DNA of 49,442 nt. Origin: a virus. Of the stretch, positions 934-8,071 are shown piece by piece. The stretch covers positions 1 to 49,442 of the IMG/VR virus record IMGVR_UViG_3300005338_000014, one strand, 5' to 3'. The stretch's first letter is position 1. Every line of letters starts with the position of its first letter. The notes beneath the pieces were generated by a model. It ran no database searches, was not told the DNA's origin, and saw only the letters and a program-made list of their open reading frames with translations. Both the position numbers and the translations under genes were made by a program.

Positions 934-1094
934 CCCTTCTCTCCTTCCCCATTGGCGTCGTAAGCGTCGGCCCAGCGGACGACTTCTCGCGCCACGGACC
1001 GGCTGATCCAGCGCCAATCCTCACCGCCTATTTCCGAACCGTCGCGGGCTCTGGCGATCCACCCGCCCTCAGGATCACGCTCGACGCGCTTCAT
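930..1094 (-). CDS. small hypothetical protein
   Basis: 54 residues, ATG at 1094 (MKRVERDPEGGWIARARDG). The stop overlaps the GTG of the zinc-finger-like gene downstream by GTGA, and its start overlaps the stop of the QueD-like gene. Tryptophan-rich and charged (GGEDWRWISRSVAREVVRW). No known family recognised. The coupling at both ends and the balanced residue use make it a credible gene. Confidence 0.55.
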   Translation of the reverse strand: MKRVERDPEGGWIARARDGSEIGGEDWRWISRSVAREVVRWADAYDANGEGEKG

Positions 1095-1444
1095 TGCTCT
1101 GCCCCTTCCCCATTGGCCTGTTCACCGAGGGCGCGGGAGCAAATAAAGCGCGCATAGAACCGCTCCAGCGGTCGCCGCACTTCGACCTCGACGCAATTTG
1201 CCAAGGTGCCGACTGCCCGGGCAATGTCCTCGCCCCAGTTCATATCGTCGGGCAACGTCTTGTGATCCCACTGCTGCACAATAGCCTCCAGCCCGACCTT
1301 GAAGCACCGCGCATCGTTCCGGTTGTCGTTCCTGAACCACGCGATCACTTCGTAGCTGTGGCCGTGGATTTCATCCTGTCCCAGCACGTCGCCCGGCAAG
1401 CGATGCGCCGCGCAGAAGACCGCTCCAACTCCGGTAAGGATCAT
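1091..1444 (-). CDS. QueD-like (6-pyruvoyl-tetrahydropterin synthase superfamily) protein
   Basis: 117 residues, the usual QueD length. Seen directly: FCAAHRLPGD at 10-19 and IHGHSYEVIAWF at 26-37, supplying His14, His27 and His29 as the classic zinc triad, then WDHKTLPDD at 59-67, equivalent to the LDHxxLND motif. QueD makes 6-carboxytetrahydropterin on the way to preQ0, the 7-deazaguanine precursor. The catalytic cysteine normally four residues before HGH is not there (Gln at that place), and the C-terminal catalytic glutamate motif is unclear, so it may be a divergent paralogue with another activity. It lies one gene away from a DpdA-like gene, which fits a 7-deazaguanine DNA-modification setting. 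Confidence 0.65.
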   Translation of the reverse strand: MILTGVGAVFCAAHRLPGDVLGQDEIHGHSYEVIAWFRNDNRNDARCFKVGLEAIVQQWDHKTLPDDMNWGEDIARAVGTLANCVEVEVRRPLERFYARFICSRALGEQANGEGAEQ

Positions 1445-1683
1445 GTCTCAGCCTCGTCATGTTGAGCAGGATACCGGCCAGGACGCCCCAGAGCATCGCG
1501 TAGGTCGGCGGCCAAGGCTGGGTTTTCTTCGGATATGCTAGAGGCATATGCGGCGAGGGCCACTTTAGCATGAGGATCGCCGGCATAATCTAAGACGAAG
1601 TAACGCGCCGCGGCCCTGACGGGGCGCCCGTCGGTTCGCGTCACGCGGAATCTGTCTTCAAAGCCGCCATAGGTTTGTCGCAT
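1441..1683 (-). CDS. hypothetical protein
   Basis: 80 residues (begins MRQTYGGFEDRFRVTRTDG). It has a possible small beta domain followed by a helical stretch (HAKVALAAYASSISEENP). Its stop overlaps the QueD-like start by ATGA; GGAGGG precedes its own ATG. Lying between the QueD-like and DpdA-like genes, it may share their pathway, but no family is recognised. Confidence 0.55.
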   Translation of the reverse strand: MRQTYGGFEDRFRVTRTDGRPVRAAARYFVLDYAGDPHAKVALAAYASSISEENPALAADLRDALGRPGRYPAQHDEAET

Positions 1684-2414
1684 GTCTATTTCCCTCCAGC
1701 CTGTCGGCGTACCAGTTGCGGCCGGTCCAGCGCTCCGGGTCCGGCATGGGGCCGAAGAGAGAGCCTTGCCTGATCGGTTCGTCCATGTAGTCGTAGCGCC
1801 ACCCGTTCTGCGCGAGGCTGGTCGAGTCCGCGCTGTCGATGAAACGGATAGTCGCGGGCGACCGCGACACCTCGCATCATATGGAGCGGCGGAAAACGGT
1901 TGCCGAGGAAGGTTCCAACTTCGTCCATCTTGCGGCGATAGGAGTCACAACCGACCGGCTCTTTTTTCCAGTCGCCGATCCAGCCGAGGCAGACGCGATC
2001 ATATTCTTGGCAGAGCCTGCCGAGCCGACCAATCGGTCCGTCCATGTGCCAGAGCGGCGCGCCCTTGCTTCTCCCGAACGGCCATGTCTTCAGGAGCGCG
2101 TCATTGAGCTGTGACGGCGCGCCCGGCCTGTCGGGGATGACCGCCCATCTGCCGGGGTGCCAGATACGCTGATCGAGCCAAGCGTAAAGAGCGCTATGGT
2201 CTCGCGGCGAGTCGTCCCACTCCTCCCCCCGCTTCAGTGCTTTGAGCCAGAAATGGACCTCGCCATTCTCATACATGATGTGTGGACAGGCGGCTTCGGC
2301 GCGGGCCGCCTGATCGGGCCGTGCGAAACTCACACAAGCGGCGCGGCGTGGCATCACCGCATCGAAGGCGGCGTTCGGCGTCAAGGGGGTGCCGTGATAG
2401 ATCGTCGCCTTCAC
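1658..2414 (-). CDS. DpdA/TGT-like protein, frame broken by one base near the 3' end
   Basis: Begins at GTG 2414 behind GGAGGAGCGGAGG. The first frame reads MKATIYHGTPLTPNAAFD, then AVIPD, LWHMDGPIGRL, RVCLGW and LHMMRGVAVARDYPF (about residue 191), then turns into arginine-rich shadow ending at 1686. Removing one T from the TTT at 1844-1842 continues as IDSADSTSLAQNGWRYDYMDE, giving 251 residues and a stop at 1658. The order YHGTPxTP, VSFARPDQ, AVIPD, WHM, HMxRG and PFxSxDST is that of a phage/prophage family I associate with TIM-barrel tRNA/DNA-guanine transglycosylase (DpdA-like) proteins. The usual LDNGAFSxW segment is here YENGEVHFW, so the presumed active-site Asp is changed. The family link is from memory and needs a profile search. 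Confidence 0.5.
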
Positions 2415-3786: not shown

Positions 3787-4863
3787 TTACTTCCCTTCCC
3801 CCTCGTTCGAGATGGCTTGGCGGGCGCGGCGGAACTTCCTCTTGCCAACGCTGGCGACAGCTTCCAGCGCGGACACCGGCTCTCCGGCTATCGCTGCAAT
3901 TTCGGCGTTGCGCTCCAGGTTGATGCCCAGTTCGACCTCAAGCTCGCGTATCCGCGCATCCTTCCGCGCGACTTGGGCTGTGAGATGTTCGATGCGGGCT
4001 TTGGCTTCGTGACTTAGTGTATCGGGCCGCGCGCCAACGGCTGGCCCACTCTCGCGAAGCTCCTCGAAGCCCATATGCGGGTACGGCAACGGATAAAATC
4101 TGTGAAAATATCGGCGCCCCAACCGCTCCACCAAATCGCCCGACACCTGCACCTCAGGCTGGGGCGGGGTGGATGCGAGGGATCGAATGCGCCTCGCCGC
4201 TTCCTGCGCCCCGAACTCGAATTTCTCGTGATTGGAGCGGCTCCATAGGTAGTCTTCGGGTAGCTTCGTCTCTTCCGCCACCTTCGCCGCCCGCTCCAAC
4301 GTCCGCAACTCCACCGCGAGGGCGTCGATCTCGTCATTGACTTCGGGACCGCCGTATTCGCCGTCCCGCCCTGCCGAGCAATTTGCATTTCCTGCAATTT
4401 GCTCTGTGGCAGGGGAGGGGGTGGCGAGGGCAGCAGCGGGAAGCCCCTTGACCGCGTTGTAGAAGGAAACCCAGCGCGCCTGATCCTTCAACCGGCCATC
4501 CGGGTTCGTGCAGGTGCCGTAGCCGGGGAAGCCCTCGATCAGATCGACGACATTGGTCAGCAACTCGCGCGGTAGAGTCGCCAGCTCGTTGCCGTCGCAA
4601 TCGATATCGCCCGCGAACCAATCTGTCCGTTCCACAGCCTCCCCCGCAGGGAGGAGTGAGGCGCGGGTGTTCCATGCCGCCGCCGCAAGCCGCTGGTCCT
4701 TGCCGCGTCCGCGATTGGCGAAAAACTCTCCGATATTCGCCCCACATTTCGAGCACTGCGCGCGCCAATGATCGCGGTGACCCTCAATCAGGTGCGCGGG
4801 AAAGCCACAGAACGGGCAAGGCTTGAGGTTATCTTGGGTCATGGGTTTGGTCGGCTCAGGCAT
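3787..4863 (-). CDS. protein with Lar-like N-terminal zinc ribbon
   Basis: 358 residues from ATG 4863 (MPEPTKPMTQDNLKPCPFCG). Residues 13-60 carry the Lar/restriction-alleviation signature: LKPCPFCGFPA, then CSKCGANIG and AAAAWNTRA. Lar-type proteins of lambdoid phages modulate host type I restriction; the same ribbon occurs in many uncharacterised phage proteins, so anti-restriction is only a possibility. The rest has acidic and helical stretches, a coiled-coil-like segment near residues 300-330 (ARIEHLTAQVARKDARIREL) and a basic C-terminus. Its start lies 8 bases inside the end of the upstream gene. Confidence 0.6.
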   Translation of the reverse strand: MPEPTKPMTQDNLKPCPFCGFPAHLIEGHRDHWRAQCSKCGANIGEFFANRGRGKDQRLAAAAWNTRASLLPAGEAVERTDWFAGDIDCDGNELATLPRELLTNVVDLIEGFPGYGTCTNPDGRLKDQARWVSFYNAVKGLPAAALATPSPATEQIAGNANCSAGRDGEYGGPEVNDEIDALAVELRTLERAAKVAEETKLPEDYLWSRSNHEKFEFGAQEAARRIRSLASTPPQPEVQVSGDLVERLGRRYFHRFYPLPYPHMGFEELRESGPAVGARPDTLSHEAKARIEHLTAQVARKDARIRELEVELGINLERNAEIAAIAGEPVSALEAVASVGKRKFRRARQAISNEGEGK

Positions 4864-5083
4864 CGGACGGCCCCTTTTCCGCTTCGATCGCCCGCCGCAC
4901 CTGATCGGGGCGCAGCACGATCCGGTAGCCGTGGGCGCGCGAGTAGGCGCGGCAGAGATCCGCAAGCTTGCCGTCGATCTCGACGATCCTCGCCGTCGCC
5001 GCCTCGCGCTCGGCGAGCAGCTTCGTCAGCCTGGCCTCGTCGAGGTCGGCCACGGGGCGTGACCTTGGGGCTGGCGCGCTCAT
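4856..5083 (-). CDS. small helical hypothetical protein
   Basis: 75 residues from ATG 5083, which overlaps the upstream stop by ATGA; the longer frame upstream is shadow of the recombination gene. Residues 12-45 look like a coiled coil (LDEARLTKLLAEREAATARI). Its position directly behind the recombination protein suggests a small partner, but no homology is recognised. Confidence 0.55.
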   Translation of the reverse strand: MSAPAPRSRPVADLDEARLTKLLAEREAATARIVEIDGKLADLCRAYSRAHGYRIVLRPDQVRRAIEAEKGPSDA

Positions 5084-6249
5084 TTGGCGCCGCTCCGCAG
5101 CTTTTCGCGTTTGGCGGCGATTGCGGCATCGACCTCGACCTTCAAGCCGTCCGGCAGCGCGTCGTATTCCGCCCCGGTCTCGCGCTCCCACGTTATCAGG
5201 TCGGCGAGCAGCTCCTTGGCCTGCGCTTCCCCGATCAGGCGCCTTGCGATCGCGCGGTGGTGATCCCCGGCTTCGAGCTCGGCGAGCACGGTTTCAGGCT
5301 GGCCGGACGATTGTCGCGCCGGCCGCCGTTCATCCGCCCCGTTATGCGCCTCACCCCTGTCCCCATCGCTGCGGCCCTCCTCGGCGTTCGGGCTTTCGGC
5401 GGTGACCGTATCGGCGCCTCCGCGCTTCGTCTTGTCGACCAGCGCGCGGGCGGCCTGGGTCGCCTCCTCGACGCCGACGCGGGGAAAGGCTTCGTCCGAC
5501 GACGTCTCGTTACGCTTGACCGAGCGGATGGCGACATGGAGGCTCGCGGCGGTGACCGTGGTCATGCCGGCGACCGGGCCGAAGCGGGCTTCGATTCTGG
5601 CGCGGCTGATCCCCAGCTCCTCGCCGATCTCGAGCAGTTCCGCGATCCGCACGTTCAGTGGCTTCTCGCTTTCCCCCTTCTGGAGCGTGGCGAGGCACGT
5701 CGCCTTGGCGATCTCGCGGACATGGACCGGCAGAACGCTGAAGATGCACTCGCGCACGCGGCGCGCGCCCATGTTGGCGTTGTTCTCGTAGATGTCCCGC
5801 ATGTCGACGATCGGCTTGAGCCCCTGCCTGGTGTCGCGCAGGTGCGGGACGATGAACTTCATCTCGGAGCGCGTGTTCGTCTCCAGATCCCAGGCATAGG
5901 CCATCATCTCAGATTCTCTGGCGGTCCGGCCGAGTTCGGCGATGCCGTGCGTGATGTTGCCCCAGCACAGCGCCATCTCGCGGGCGAGGTGGATCGTCTC
6001 GCCGGACACGTTGCCGCCGCCGCGCGAAAACTCGAAAAAGGCGGCCTCGGCCAGTGGCAGCTGCTTGCAGGCCTCGCGAACGCGCCTGATCGCTTCCGCC
6101 TGGTCGCGCGGCCGCTGTTGGGCGACGACCAGCGCGCCCTGCACCTCGGCGATCGCTCGGCTCTGCTCGATCACCGTGGCCTGGCTGGCGGATTCGCCGC
6201 GGGCCTGGTTGTGGATCATTTCCTTGGTGACGGCTGGCTCTCTGGTCAT
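5080..6249 (-). CDS. putative single-strand annealing recombination protein
   Basis: 389 residues. It belongs to a recognisable phage family with VQGALVVAQQRPRDQ near 35-50, FFEFSRGGGNVSGETIHLA, WGNITHGIAEL, YAWDLETNTRSEMKFIV and DMRDIYENNANMGARRVREC. This family lies beside RecE-type nucleases in several phages and I take it as a RecT/Redbeta-like annealing protein, although I cannot confirm the fold here. The C-terminal third (about 260-330) is charged and disordered. Two genes upstream is the RecE-like exonuclease, and a DnaQ-like exonuclease lies between, which together look like a phage homologous-recombination set. Confidence 0.55.
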   Translation of the reverse strand: MTREPAVTKEMIHNQARGESASQATVIEQSRAIAEVQGALVVAQQRPRDQAEAIRRVREACKQLPLAEAAFFEFSRGGGNVSGETIHLAREMALCWGNITHGIAELGRTARESEMMAYAWDLETNTRSEMKFIVPHLRDTRQGLKPIVDMRDIYENNANMGARRVRECIFSVLPVHVREIAKATCLATLQKGESEKPLNVRIAELLEIGEELGISRARIEARFGPVAGMTTVTAASLHVAIRSVKRNETSSDEAFPRVGVEEATQAARALVDKTKRGGADTVTAESPNAEEGRSDGDRGEAHNGADERRPARQSSGQPETVLAELEAGDHHRAIARRLIGEAQAKELLADLITWERETGAEYDALPDGLKVEVDAAIAAKREKLRSGAK

Positions 6250-6888
6250 GCGGCGGCCTTCTCTGGCGGGTTGAGGTGGAAATAGATGCGGTGGCAGGCC
6301 CGGACGTCGACGAGCGCGTCATGGGCGCCTTCAAGGCCCTCGCCGAAGAAGTGGCGGATCGCTTCCTCGAGCCGCGGCCATTTCCAGTCGCGATCGTGTC
6401 GTGGCTCGGCGTGGAGGATGCGGCAGAGGCCGGTCGAGGACTTCATCGTGCAATAGGTCGGCACGTCCGGCGCCCATTTGCGGCCGTAGACCCGGGCCGA
6501 GGCGATCCGGACGATGCGGACGTCGAAGCTTACATTGTGACCGGCGAGCAGCCCTCCGCGGCGCACCATGGCGAAGAAGCGGTCGAGCGCCTCCTTCGGC
6601 GAGCAGCCCTCCGCGGCGCACCATGGCGAAGAAGCGGTCGAGCGCCTCCTTCGGCGAGCAGCCCTCCGCGGCGCAGCGCTCCGGCGTCAGGCCATGGGCC
6701 GCGACCGCTTCTGGCTCGAAGCGGACGCCGGGGCCGGGATCGATGATCGTCGAATATTCCTCGGCGATCGTGCCGTCGTCGCCGCAGAGCAAGGCGGCGA
6801 GCTGGACGAGATGCGGCTGACGCGGATCGTCGCTCGGCTCCTTCCAGAGCGGCAGGCCGGTCGTCTCGGCGTCGAAGAAAAGGATCAT
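6246..6888 (-). pseudogene. DnaQ-like 3'-5' exonuclease, frame broken by a 55-bp tandem duplication
   Basis: From ATG 6888 the protein opens with MILFFDAETTGLPLW, the DEDD motif I (Asp6, Glu8), and continues to RFFAMVRRGGLLA, after which the frame is lost. The other half resumes in another frame as GHNVSFDVRIVRIAS (motif II) and AHDALVDVRACHRIYF (motif III). The break is caused by a 55-bp tandem duplication at 6543-6652; removing one unit restores a 195-residue protein with all motifs. Such enzymes degrade or proofread DNA 3' ends and often assist phage recombination. As written the sequence encodes only an inactive N-terminal piece; an assembly error is the main alternative. Confidence 0.75.
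6543..6674. repeat. 55-bp tandem duplication, 2.4 copies
   Basis: Two identical 55-bp units lie at 6543-6597 and 6598-6652, followed by the first 22 bases of the unit at 6653-6674. The partial copy is presumably the natural sequence: one short direct repeat in the original gene (ggcgagcagccctccgcgg start) bounded the 55-bp spacer, and slippage between those repeats added a unit. Fifty-five is not a multiple of three, so the DnaQ-like frame is destroyed. Confidence 0.9.
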
Positions 6889-6899
6889 CGTTCGCCCCT

Positions 6900-7817
6900 T
6901 CAAAGCTCGTAGGAAAGCCGGCCGCTTTCGACGCGGCGCTGGATTTCCTTCTTTTTCCACGGTGTCAGCATGAGCGGCAGGATCGGCTCGTCGCGGGACG
7001 AGTAGCCCGGCCACTCGCCCGTAGTCAGGCATTGGTCGAAGAGATCGAGCGCCCGACGGTTCAGAAGTCGCGCCTCGTGGATGTCGCCTTCGTCGAGAGC
7101 GTAGATCTCGACGAGGTGCGGCGGCTTCTTCTCGATCACGATATGGACGAACTGCCGCTTCGCCTCGCCGAAAACGAGGTCGAGGATGTCGAGGCAATGC
7201 GCCGCCCATTGGAAATAGCCCCAGCGCGTCGCGGCCTTCTCGTAATCGTCGGGCTGGGCGCTGACGACGCCCTTGACGTCGGGGATGATTTCCATCGTGT
7301 CGGGCAGGATGTCGGGCCTGGTCAGCATCCAGCGCCCTGTCTTCGGATCGCGGGCCGCTATGGTCACCTCGGGCTTGCCGGACATGATGAGCGCGCTGGC
7401 GAGCGGATGCTTGTCGCACGCCTCGGCCATGGCGAGGGCGAGATCGAATTCGGATTGCTGGAGAATGTTCAGGCCGGCGTTACAGGCCGCTTTCCAGCCC
7501 TCCATCTCGTCCGCCCATTTGATGTGATGCTTCGGCGTGAAGCCGTCGGGCACGATGTGATATTCGGCCGGAACCATGCCTTTGTAGAGCAGGACGTCGT
7601 GGAGCAGATGGCCGAGCGCGAAATGCGACTTCGGCGTCGGTTCGACGCGGTCCGGATTGTGAATCGACTTCAGCCAATAATGGGCGCAGCTCTCCTGCTC
7701 GATCGTGACGAGCCCGGAGCCGTGGATCGAATGTTCCGGGCAGAGCTCGCGGCCGTGATAATCGGCGTTGGAGATGTCGGGATAGGCGCCGGGGGCGGTT
7801 ATCAGCGGGGCGGTCAT
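6900..7817 (-). CDS. RecE-like PD-(D/E)XK exonuclease (DUF3799 type)
   Basis: 305 residues. Begins with ITAPGAYPDISNADYHGREL, typical of the exodeoxyribonuclease VIII C-terminal domain family. GHLLHDVLL at 69-77 is the conserved helix; the nuclease core is Glu150, RPDIL at 167-171 and PDVKG at 179-183 (the D and DxK of PD-(D/E)XK), followed by the helix YFQWAAHCLDI. The enzyme would resect 5' ends of double-stranded DNA and hand 3' tails to an annealing protein, here probably the product of 5080-6249. Start overlaps the preceding stop by ATGA. Confidence 0.8.
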   Translation of the reverse strand: MTAPLITAPGAYPDISNADYHGRELCPEHSIHGSGLVTIEQESCAHYWLKSIHNPDRVEPTPKSHFALGHLLHDVLLYKGMVPAEYHIVPDGFTPKHHIKWADEMEGWKAACNAGLNILQQSEFDLALAMAEACDKHPLASALIMSGKPEVTIAARDPKTGRWMLTRPDILPDTMEIIPDVKGVVSAQPDDYEKAATRWGYFQWAAHCLDILDLVFGEAKRQFVHIVIEKKPPHLVEIYALDEGDIHEARLLNRRALDLFDQCLTTGEWPGYSSRDEPILPLMLTPWKKKEIQRRVESGRLSYEL

Positions 7818-8071
7818 GCGGGGACCTTTCGCGGACAGCCTTGCAAATAGTCGATCAGCCCCCAGCCCTTCCGGTCAAGGTCGTCGGCAACGTAGAGGAG
7901 CTGCAGGCCCCAGCCGGGCCCGCCGTCGGGGAACATCGCCGCGCCGATGCGATTCAGCGCCTCGGCTTCGTCTAGGGAGTTCATGTCAAGGAAGGCGGCC
8001 GCGAGTTCCTCGGGCGAAACCTCAACTTCAAGAGTGCGCCGAACGACGCCAGTTCGGACGGTCTCAACCAC
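7814..8071 (-). CDS. hypothetical protein
   Basis: 85 residues from GTG 8071 (VVETVRTGVVRRTLEVEV), chosen because further upstream the frame is only shadow of the preceding gene. It contains LEVEVSPEELAAAFLDMNS and ends WGLIDYLQGCPRKVPA. Overlaps the upstream gene by 8 bases and the exonuclease start by ATGA. No family recognised; it may be a small accessory to the recombination genes. Confidence 0.5.
   Translation of the reverse strand: MVETVRTGVVRRTLEVEVSPEELAAAFLDMNSLDEAEALNRIGAAMFPDGGPGWGLQLLYVADDLDRKGWGLIDYLQGCPRKVPA

Follow-up and report, generated by a model that had tools for sequence, protein, structure and literature searches.

Does a phage gene whose conserved motifs lie in two different reading frames still encode a guanine transglycosylase, and does that enzyme serve a DNA-modification cassette? 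The question is raised by an IMG/VR virus record that was analysed in its entirety (49,442 bases, here called the window; 67% GC), and that encodes a lambda-type terminase, a portal protein, a head protease and a major head protein. No tRNA genes were found across the 49,442 bases. On the minus strand, from 2414 to 1091, a dpdA gene, a gene for an 80-aa phrog_9572 protein and a QueD-like gene follow one another, overlapping or nearly touching (Table 1): the zero-frame TAG of dpdA ends 2 nt ahead of the ATG of the phrog_9572 gene, and the stop of the latter overlaps the start of the QueD-like gene as ATGA, so that the three genes appear to be translationally coupled. A preliminary description of this DNA placed a QueD-like gene one gene away from a DpdA-like gene, which is accurate, the intervening gene being the ORF at 1441-1683; the "251-residue protein" that it assigned to the DpdA-like gene is not an open reading frame, and arose from silently joining a zero-frame ORF to a +1-frame ORF. 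About 1.4 kb upstream of dpdA, an ORF at 3787-4965 matches a Lar-type restriction-alleviation zinc ribbon (Pfam PF14354, 3.4e-12) and, judged by this match, is a possible second anti-restriction gene.

Table 1. Features of the dpdA locus in the window (positions in the 49,442-base record).
Feature	Position	Strand	Remarks
dpdA, zero-frame part	1842..2414	(-)	GTG start 2414, through UUU codon 1844-1842; residues 1-191; phrog_887 match at residues 5-154
+1 slip site CCG UUU CAU (predicted)	1839..1847	(-)	P-site UUU -> UUC; column identical to CCN UUU C of seven other distinct genes
dpdA, +1-frame part (I-DSADSTSLAQN ... LWRL stop)	1658..1840	(-)	aligns with C-terminus of intact relatives
dpdA, zero-frame tail (product of non-shifting ribosomes)	1686..1841	(-)	TAG 1688-1686
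phrog_9572 protein, 80 aa	1441..1683	(-)	PHROG match 1.2e-18
QueD-like (PTPS-superfamily) protein, 117 aa	1091..1444	(-)	Pfam PTPS; without catalytic Cys

Homology and fold of the DpdA-like protein

The joined two-frame protein matches phrog_887 (queuine tRNA-ribosyltransferase) at 9.7e-22, compared with 6.6e-17 for the zero-frame ORF alone, and tblastn searches relate it to gp032 of Salmonella phage 7-11 (35% identity, 4e-17) and to DpdA of Pantoea phage MED16 (31% identity, 6e-8). The motifs YHGTP, HMMRG and DSADST are present in the window gene. A single-sequence model of the window protein was unusable (pLDDT 31.8), and an alignment-based model of an intact relative (L013; pLDDT 86.7) was used instead, in which eight alternating strand/helix units form a TIM barrel. 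The structural likeness to DpdA and TGT that the preliminary description had anticipated was found on one side: the viral structures matched by the L013 model at E<=0.001 include numerous queuine transferases of phages, along with proteins from Vibrio phage nt-1 and Cellulophaga phage phiST, whereas the PDB yielded no significant fold match for the model, with no solved TGT among the 50 matches listed. A PDB profile search gave no meaningful sequence match. By homology, the window protein is a phage DpdA/TGT homologue, and the link to this family that the preliminary description had drawn is upheld by the matches to PHROG 887, 7-11 gp032 and MED16 DpdA and by the barrel model. Across the family, D45 of the DNG motif is near-invariant and D192 is invariant, the nucleophilic Asp being assigned from TGT motifs; the window protein has E at the D45 position and retains the Asp of the second motif, but only in the +1 frame.

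Fold and motifs are common to tRNA-guanine transglycosylase, and the database name is that of a queuine tRNA-ribosyltransferase, which would suit an enzyme that acts on tRNA and boosts host queuosine rather than one that acts on DNA. This is quite unlikely, because the closest studied relatives accompany dADG in phage DNA, at ~0.02% of G in phage 7-11 (PMC6884629) and ~0.13% of G in MED16 (PMC8306585), and because modification of the DNA of phage CAjan requires DpdA (PMC6884629).

A +1 break shared by many dpdA genes of sphingomonad phages

The dpdA gene of the window spans two frames. The zero frame begins with GTG 2414, ends with TAG 1686 (ORF 1686-2414, 242 aa) and contains YHGTP and HMMRG; DSADST is found solely in the +1 frame (ORF 1658-1870), which ends at 1658. 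The change of frame is forced within TAT CCG TTT CAT CGA, with the junction at CCG TTT CAT (1847-1839), and the predicted junction peptide of the shifted protein is ...DYPFIDSADSTSLAQNGWR.

An initial protein-only scan detected no relatives of this gene, which were found by alignment scans. After removal of duplicates, viral scans and a bacterial-genome scan together gave a clade of 63 distinct dpdA genes: 24 intact, 29 broken at one place (site 1), eight broken at the place seen in the window (site 2), and one each at two further places. All 39 breaks are +1, and 37 of them fall at two codon columns; the broken members belong to phages and prophages of sphingomonad bacteria. Site 1 reads AUG UUU CGA in 29 of 29 genes and lies immediately ahead of the DNG motif, whereas site 2 lies immediately ahead of SADST and reads CCG UUU CGU (three genes), CCG UUU CGC (two), CCC UUU CGU, CCG UUU CAC or, in the window, CCG UUU CAU. 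CCC UUU CUA, the third place, occurs in Rhizorhapis suberifaciens (also present as an IMG copy); CCC UUU UGU, the fourth, occurs in L152. The relative nearest to the window by its QueD-like protein (L005; 74%) is broken at a different place, ATG TTT CGA before DNG. Because of where sites 1 and 2 lie, translation without a shift always omits one or both of the conserved Asp motifs: the unshifted product of site 2 lacks the conserved Asp of the last strand, and that of site 1 lacks nearly everything. In a tree of the clade the site types are clustered, with 11 label changes needed, six of them between intact and broken; because support is modest and the branch of the window is long, the number of gains and moves of the break is uncertain.

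An exact-pattern scan for site 1 returned 27 records, of which 24 were dpdA, including one new gene (L236). One further candidate (L260) fits the site-2 pattern and was set aside, as the gene appears to be in frame and to belong to a different subfamily. More than 80 dpdA loci beyond the clade have an unbroken gene, the exception being L209 (8001-8640), a Rhizobiales MAG with a lone +1 break at a non-UUU site that is either an assembly error or another type of shift. In L166, dpdA is interrupted near site 2 by an insertion of ~350 nt (402-753), which falls between YP and FVSVDST; an intron was considered and found no Rfam match, and the insertion may be a mobile element.

Selection on the shifted frame

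A one-base insertion that turns TTC into TTTC is a simple event, and the lone break of L209 shows that dpdA can be interrupted elsewhere; all of the breaks might thus be independent frameshift mutations or assembly errors, amounting to decay of the gene in many phages. The uniform sense of the breaks and their concentration at two columns argue against this, as does the intactness of the loci outside the clade, L209 excepted. Site-1 genes are 52-84% identical in protein after clustering, yet the nine bases of the site are invariant. The slip Phe codon of the +1 frame is UUC in 29 of 29 genes; two other conserved Phe positions are UUU in 10 of 29 and 8 of 28. For site-1 genes, the set on which the calculation was made, unsaturated pairs have a dN/dS of 0.05-0.35 downstream of the site; the values are 0.05-0.10 in two clusters of closely related genes with the site-1 break in common, which indicates that the shifted frame has been under selection ever since the break. 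Purifying selection acts upstream of site 1 as well as downstream. The motif recurs in dozens of independent contigs, and isolate genomes of Sphingobium and Rhizorhapis carry the break, for which reasons sequencing or assembly error was rejected as the cause. Breaks that are shared and selected in effect refute independent mutation or error, to which we assign hardly any probability.

The two parts of the gene might instead be translated separately, internal initiation giving two polypeptides that form a split enzyme with no frameshifting. Some members do have a possible +1-frame start upstream of the junction, among them the window, where GTG 1870 would permit a separate C-terminal ORF. However, 19 of the 29 site-1 genes have no ATG, GTG or TTG in the +1 frame between the last stop and the junction or DNG motif, so that a separately initiated C-terminal protein could not include DNG; a split enzyme also gives no reason for an invariant slip sequence, and is very unlikely.

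The window copy is the least typical of the set: its A-site codon is CAU and not CGN, the junction contains an additional codon (I-D-S-A-D), D45 is replaced by E, and the branch is long. No further exact match to its own junction sequence was found elsewhere. Whatever the state of its relatives, it could be a decaying pseudogene with an indel: D45E affects a near-invariant position, UUU CAU replaces UUU CGN, and the branch is long; moreover, in L150, which is also broken at site 2, the Asp of SADST is replaced by G. We consider decay of the window copy unlikely, because its +1 reading is open and aligned to its end, all of the remaining motifs are retained, and the break falls at a UUU C column common to seven other distinct genes. 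The extra codon alone is not a sign of decay, since L174, which shifts at site 1, has a similar IDSAD junction. The dpdA gene of L150 (substitution at 4850-4873) may itself be inactive.

Proposed slippage at UUU_C

UUU is read by tRNA-Phe with the anticodon GAA, which pairs better with UUC. In the proposed mechanism, slow filling of the A site would give the P-site tRNA-Phe time to leave UUU and re-pair with UUC, one base further along. Usage of CGA and CGU in the genes of the examined records is ~1% each, and that of CGC is ~4%. Full-length DpdA of the window would be made only if ribosomes shifted +1 at CCG UUU CAU; the unshifted product would lack the final strand of the barrel, in which the conserved Asp lies, and would stop 2 nt ahead of the next start codon. 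The rate of frameshifting would thereby set the amount of active enzyme, and the simplest role, presumably, would be to limit the dose of DpdA. A functional zero-frame product was rejected as a general feature, as it differs in length between genes and, in L161, ends two codons past site 1.

In the other genes of the examined records UUU CGA is not avoided (20 seen versus 12 expected), so the tetramer alone is not strongly shifty. At site 1 no conserved downstream RNA structure was found (mean z ~ -0.2 to -0.35), and a close upstream Shine-Dalgarno-like stretch showed no consistent pairing. The lack of a detected stimulator, together with the lack of avoidance, suggests that the shift rate may be low or may depend on an unseen factor. 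Control by queuosine, through a Q-containing tRNA reading the GAY +1 codon of site 1, was retained as no more than speculation, since it does not fit the GUC, GCC, ACC and AUC codons of site 2.

The QueD-like protein and other neighbours of dpdA

Residues 9-69 of the QueD-like protein match Pfam PTPS at 7.6e-7, above the family cut-off, and a profile of four relatives retrieves PTPS/QueD structures in the PDB. Three putative zinc-binding His (H14, H27 and H29 in the window protein) are invariant across 42 QueD-like relatives, as are E78 and R110, and E113 is present in 40 of the 42; the QueD-superfamily protein with zinc histidines of the preliminary description is therefore real. The catalytic Cys before HGH is missing from the window protein, and a Cys near or shortly before HGH is found in 1 of 36 motif-bearing relatives. 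The score against the QueD equivalog TIGR03367 is 25.9 bits, below the cut-off of 89.25. Because of the missing Cys and the low score we use the label QueD-like, and by its sequence the protein encoded at 1091-1444 is a QueD-like member of the PTPS superfamily, not a demonstrated QueD. The deviations at catalytic positions to which the preliminary description had drawn attention, E for D45 in DpdA and the missing Cys here, thus exist, but they are not the main novelty of the locus; that is the conserved +1 break, which it overlooked.

A QueD-like gene accompanies dpdA in 21 of the 63 distinct clade members, within the stretch fetched, and is next to dpdA also in Caulobacter phage DMCA. Two contigs (L006 and L007) carry a cassette of QueE, a Cys-less QueD-like protein, phrog_9572, DpdA and QueC; that of L006 is compact (5381-7915) and is repeated in L007, and no FolE is among the genes identified there. 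In some other relatives dpdA is adjoined instead by a gene of the DUF165/VUT family, to which the preQ0 transporter YhhQ belongs. The QueD-like, QueE/QueC and DUF165/VUT neighbours indicate that the partners of dpdA are 7-deazaguanine supply genes. The phrog_9572 gene adjoins dpdA in DMCA, Pam5, L006, L039, L102 and L173, and is thus a recurrent neighbour of dpdA in unrelated phages; the PHROGs label of "sulfatase-modifying factor enzyme" is probably a misnomer for this 80-aa protein. DpdL, reportedly a phage 7-carboxy-7-deazaguanine decarboxylase described in a 2023 study, is a candidate identity for the Cys-less QueD-like protein, offered as a lead; by contrast with such a decarboxylase route, which would not require QueC, the cassette of L006 carries QueC too.

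Precursor supply and the proposed cassette

FolE and QueC are absent from the whole 49,442-base record and QueE has no phmmer match in it, in agreement with the gaps already listed in the preliminary description. QueC is present in all five of the clade-carrying bacterial genomes that were checked, which, given the absence of FolE and QueC from the record, makes the supply of preQ0 by the host plausible, as that description had also supposed. The cassette may make a new base derivative, as was suggested there too, the results speaking neither for this nor against it.

Taken together, we estimate a probability of roughly 80% that the locus is a 7-deazaguanine DNA-modification cassette dependent on host preQ0, with DpdA produced by programmed +1 frameshifting at UUU_C (mostly UUU_CGN), a reading drawn from comparative sequence analysis. 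A tailed phage with lambda-type packaging, probably infecting a sphingomonad, would carry dpdA, the phrog_9572 gene and the QueD-like gene as a short modification cassette; DpdA, a TIM-barrel guanine transglycosylase, would remove guanine from phage DNA and insert preQ0, or a derivative of it such as ADG, in its place; and preQ0 or the derivative would be supplied mainly by the queuosine pathway of the host. In this reading we infer the ribosome as the shifting agent, the rate of the shift, DNA as the substrate and the base that is made. Whether sphingomonad phages have repeatedly put a relocating +1 UUU_C slip site in dpdA, mostly before a conserved Asp motif, as a dose limiter or sensor, making this the first programmed frameshift to control a DNA-modification enzyme, is in our judgement an evenly balanced proposition.

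DpdA, QueD-like proteins and shifting at UUU_CGN each have known counterparts; a literature search covering titles and the beginnings of abstracts brought up no phage DNA-modification gene with a +1 programmed frameshift that is conserved and relocates. Most known cases of programmed frameshifting in phages concern capsid and tail proteins. The enzyme that it appears to control here modifies DNA as an escape from restriction, and the sites are of the UUU_CGN type, which was first reported from viruses of eukaryotes. Because gene callers split the broken genes, annotation of this dpdA clade is probably incomplete. Two questions can now be put to the test: the strength of a bare UUU_CGA or UUU_CGU as a +1 site in bacteria, and the reason for which a phage would restrict or time its transglycosylase when the dADG of related phages is sparse (0.02-0.13% of G).

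Comparison with known systems

The dpdA studied here resembles the 7-11 gp032 and MED16 genes of the "DpdA only" group in homology across the barrel, in its DNGAFS and (S)xDST motifs, in its compactness and in the lack of FolE, QueE and QueC. It differs in that those genes are annotated as single ORFs, whereas that of the window needs a +1 shift, and in that it sits with QueD-like and phrog_9572 genes, unlike theirs.

Frameshifts (+1 or -1) in phage structural genes include those of the capsid and tail genes of Listeria phage PSA and of T7 gene 10. In PSA, the shift occurs on a proline codon ahead of a stop or a pseudoknot (PMC5009743). A programmed frameshift in a tailed phage, as proposed for dpdA, is thus the common feature, but these genes encode structural proteins and give two useful products.

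A precedent from alphaproteobacteria is FseA (msi172-msi171) of Mesorhizobium ICEs, the product of a low-frequency +1 programmed frameshift (PMC10359603). There, as proposed for dpdA, a +1 shift joins two ORFs and the fused protein is active, but the protein is an unrelated transcription activator of conjugative elements and not a phage enzyme. In two Sphingobium genomes, G004 and G005, the FseA homologues are broken, as read here, at UCC UUU CGC and UCU UUU CGC, and a homologue in G008 breaks at CGA UUU CCC. The sphingomonad FseA/RovC-type genes L246, L247 and L248 have +1 junctions at UCU UUU CGC, UCC UUU CGC and CGA UUU CCC.

With respect to the slip site, dpdA is to be compared with PA-X of influenza A virus, which is made by a +1 shift at UCC_UUU_CGU at ~1%; according to the prediction of its authors, UUU_C sites with an A-site CGN form a class, and the 2012 paper raised the question of a wider use of UUU_CGN (PMC3498833). 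PA-X moves, and dpdA would move, UUU_C to UUC in the P site, and both favour CGN in the A site; PA-X has no known 3' stimulator, and none was found for dpdA. PA-X, however, belongs to a eukaryotic RNA virus, and its shifted product is minor beside a functional main product, whereas in dpdA the shifted product would be the sole full enzyme, the E-site codon is AUG or CCN, and the slip site occupies differing positions in the gene.
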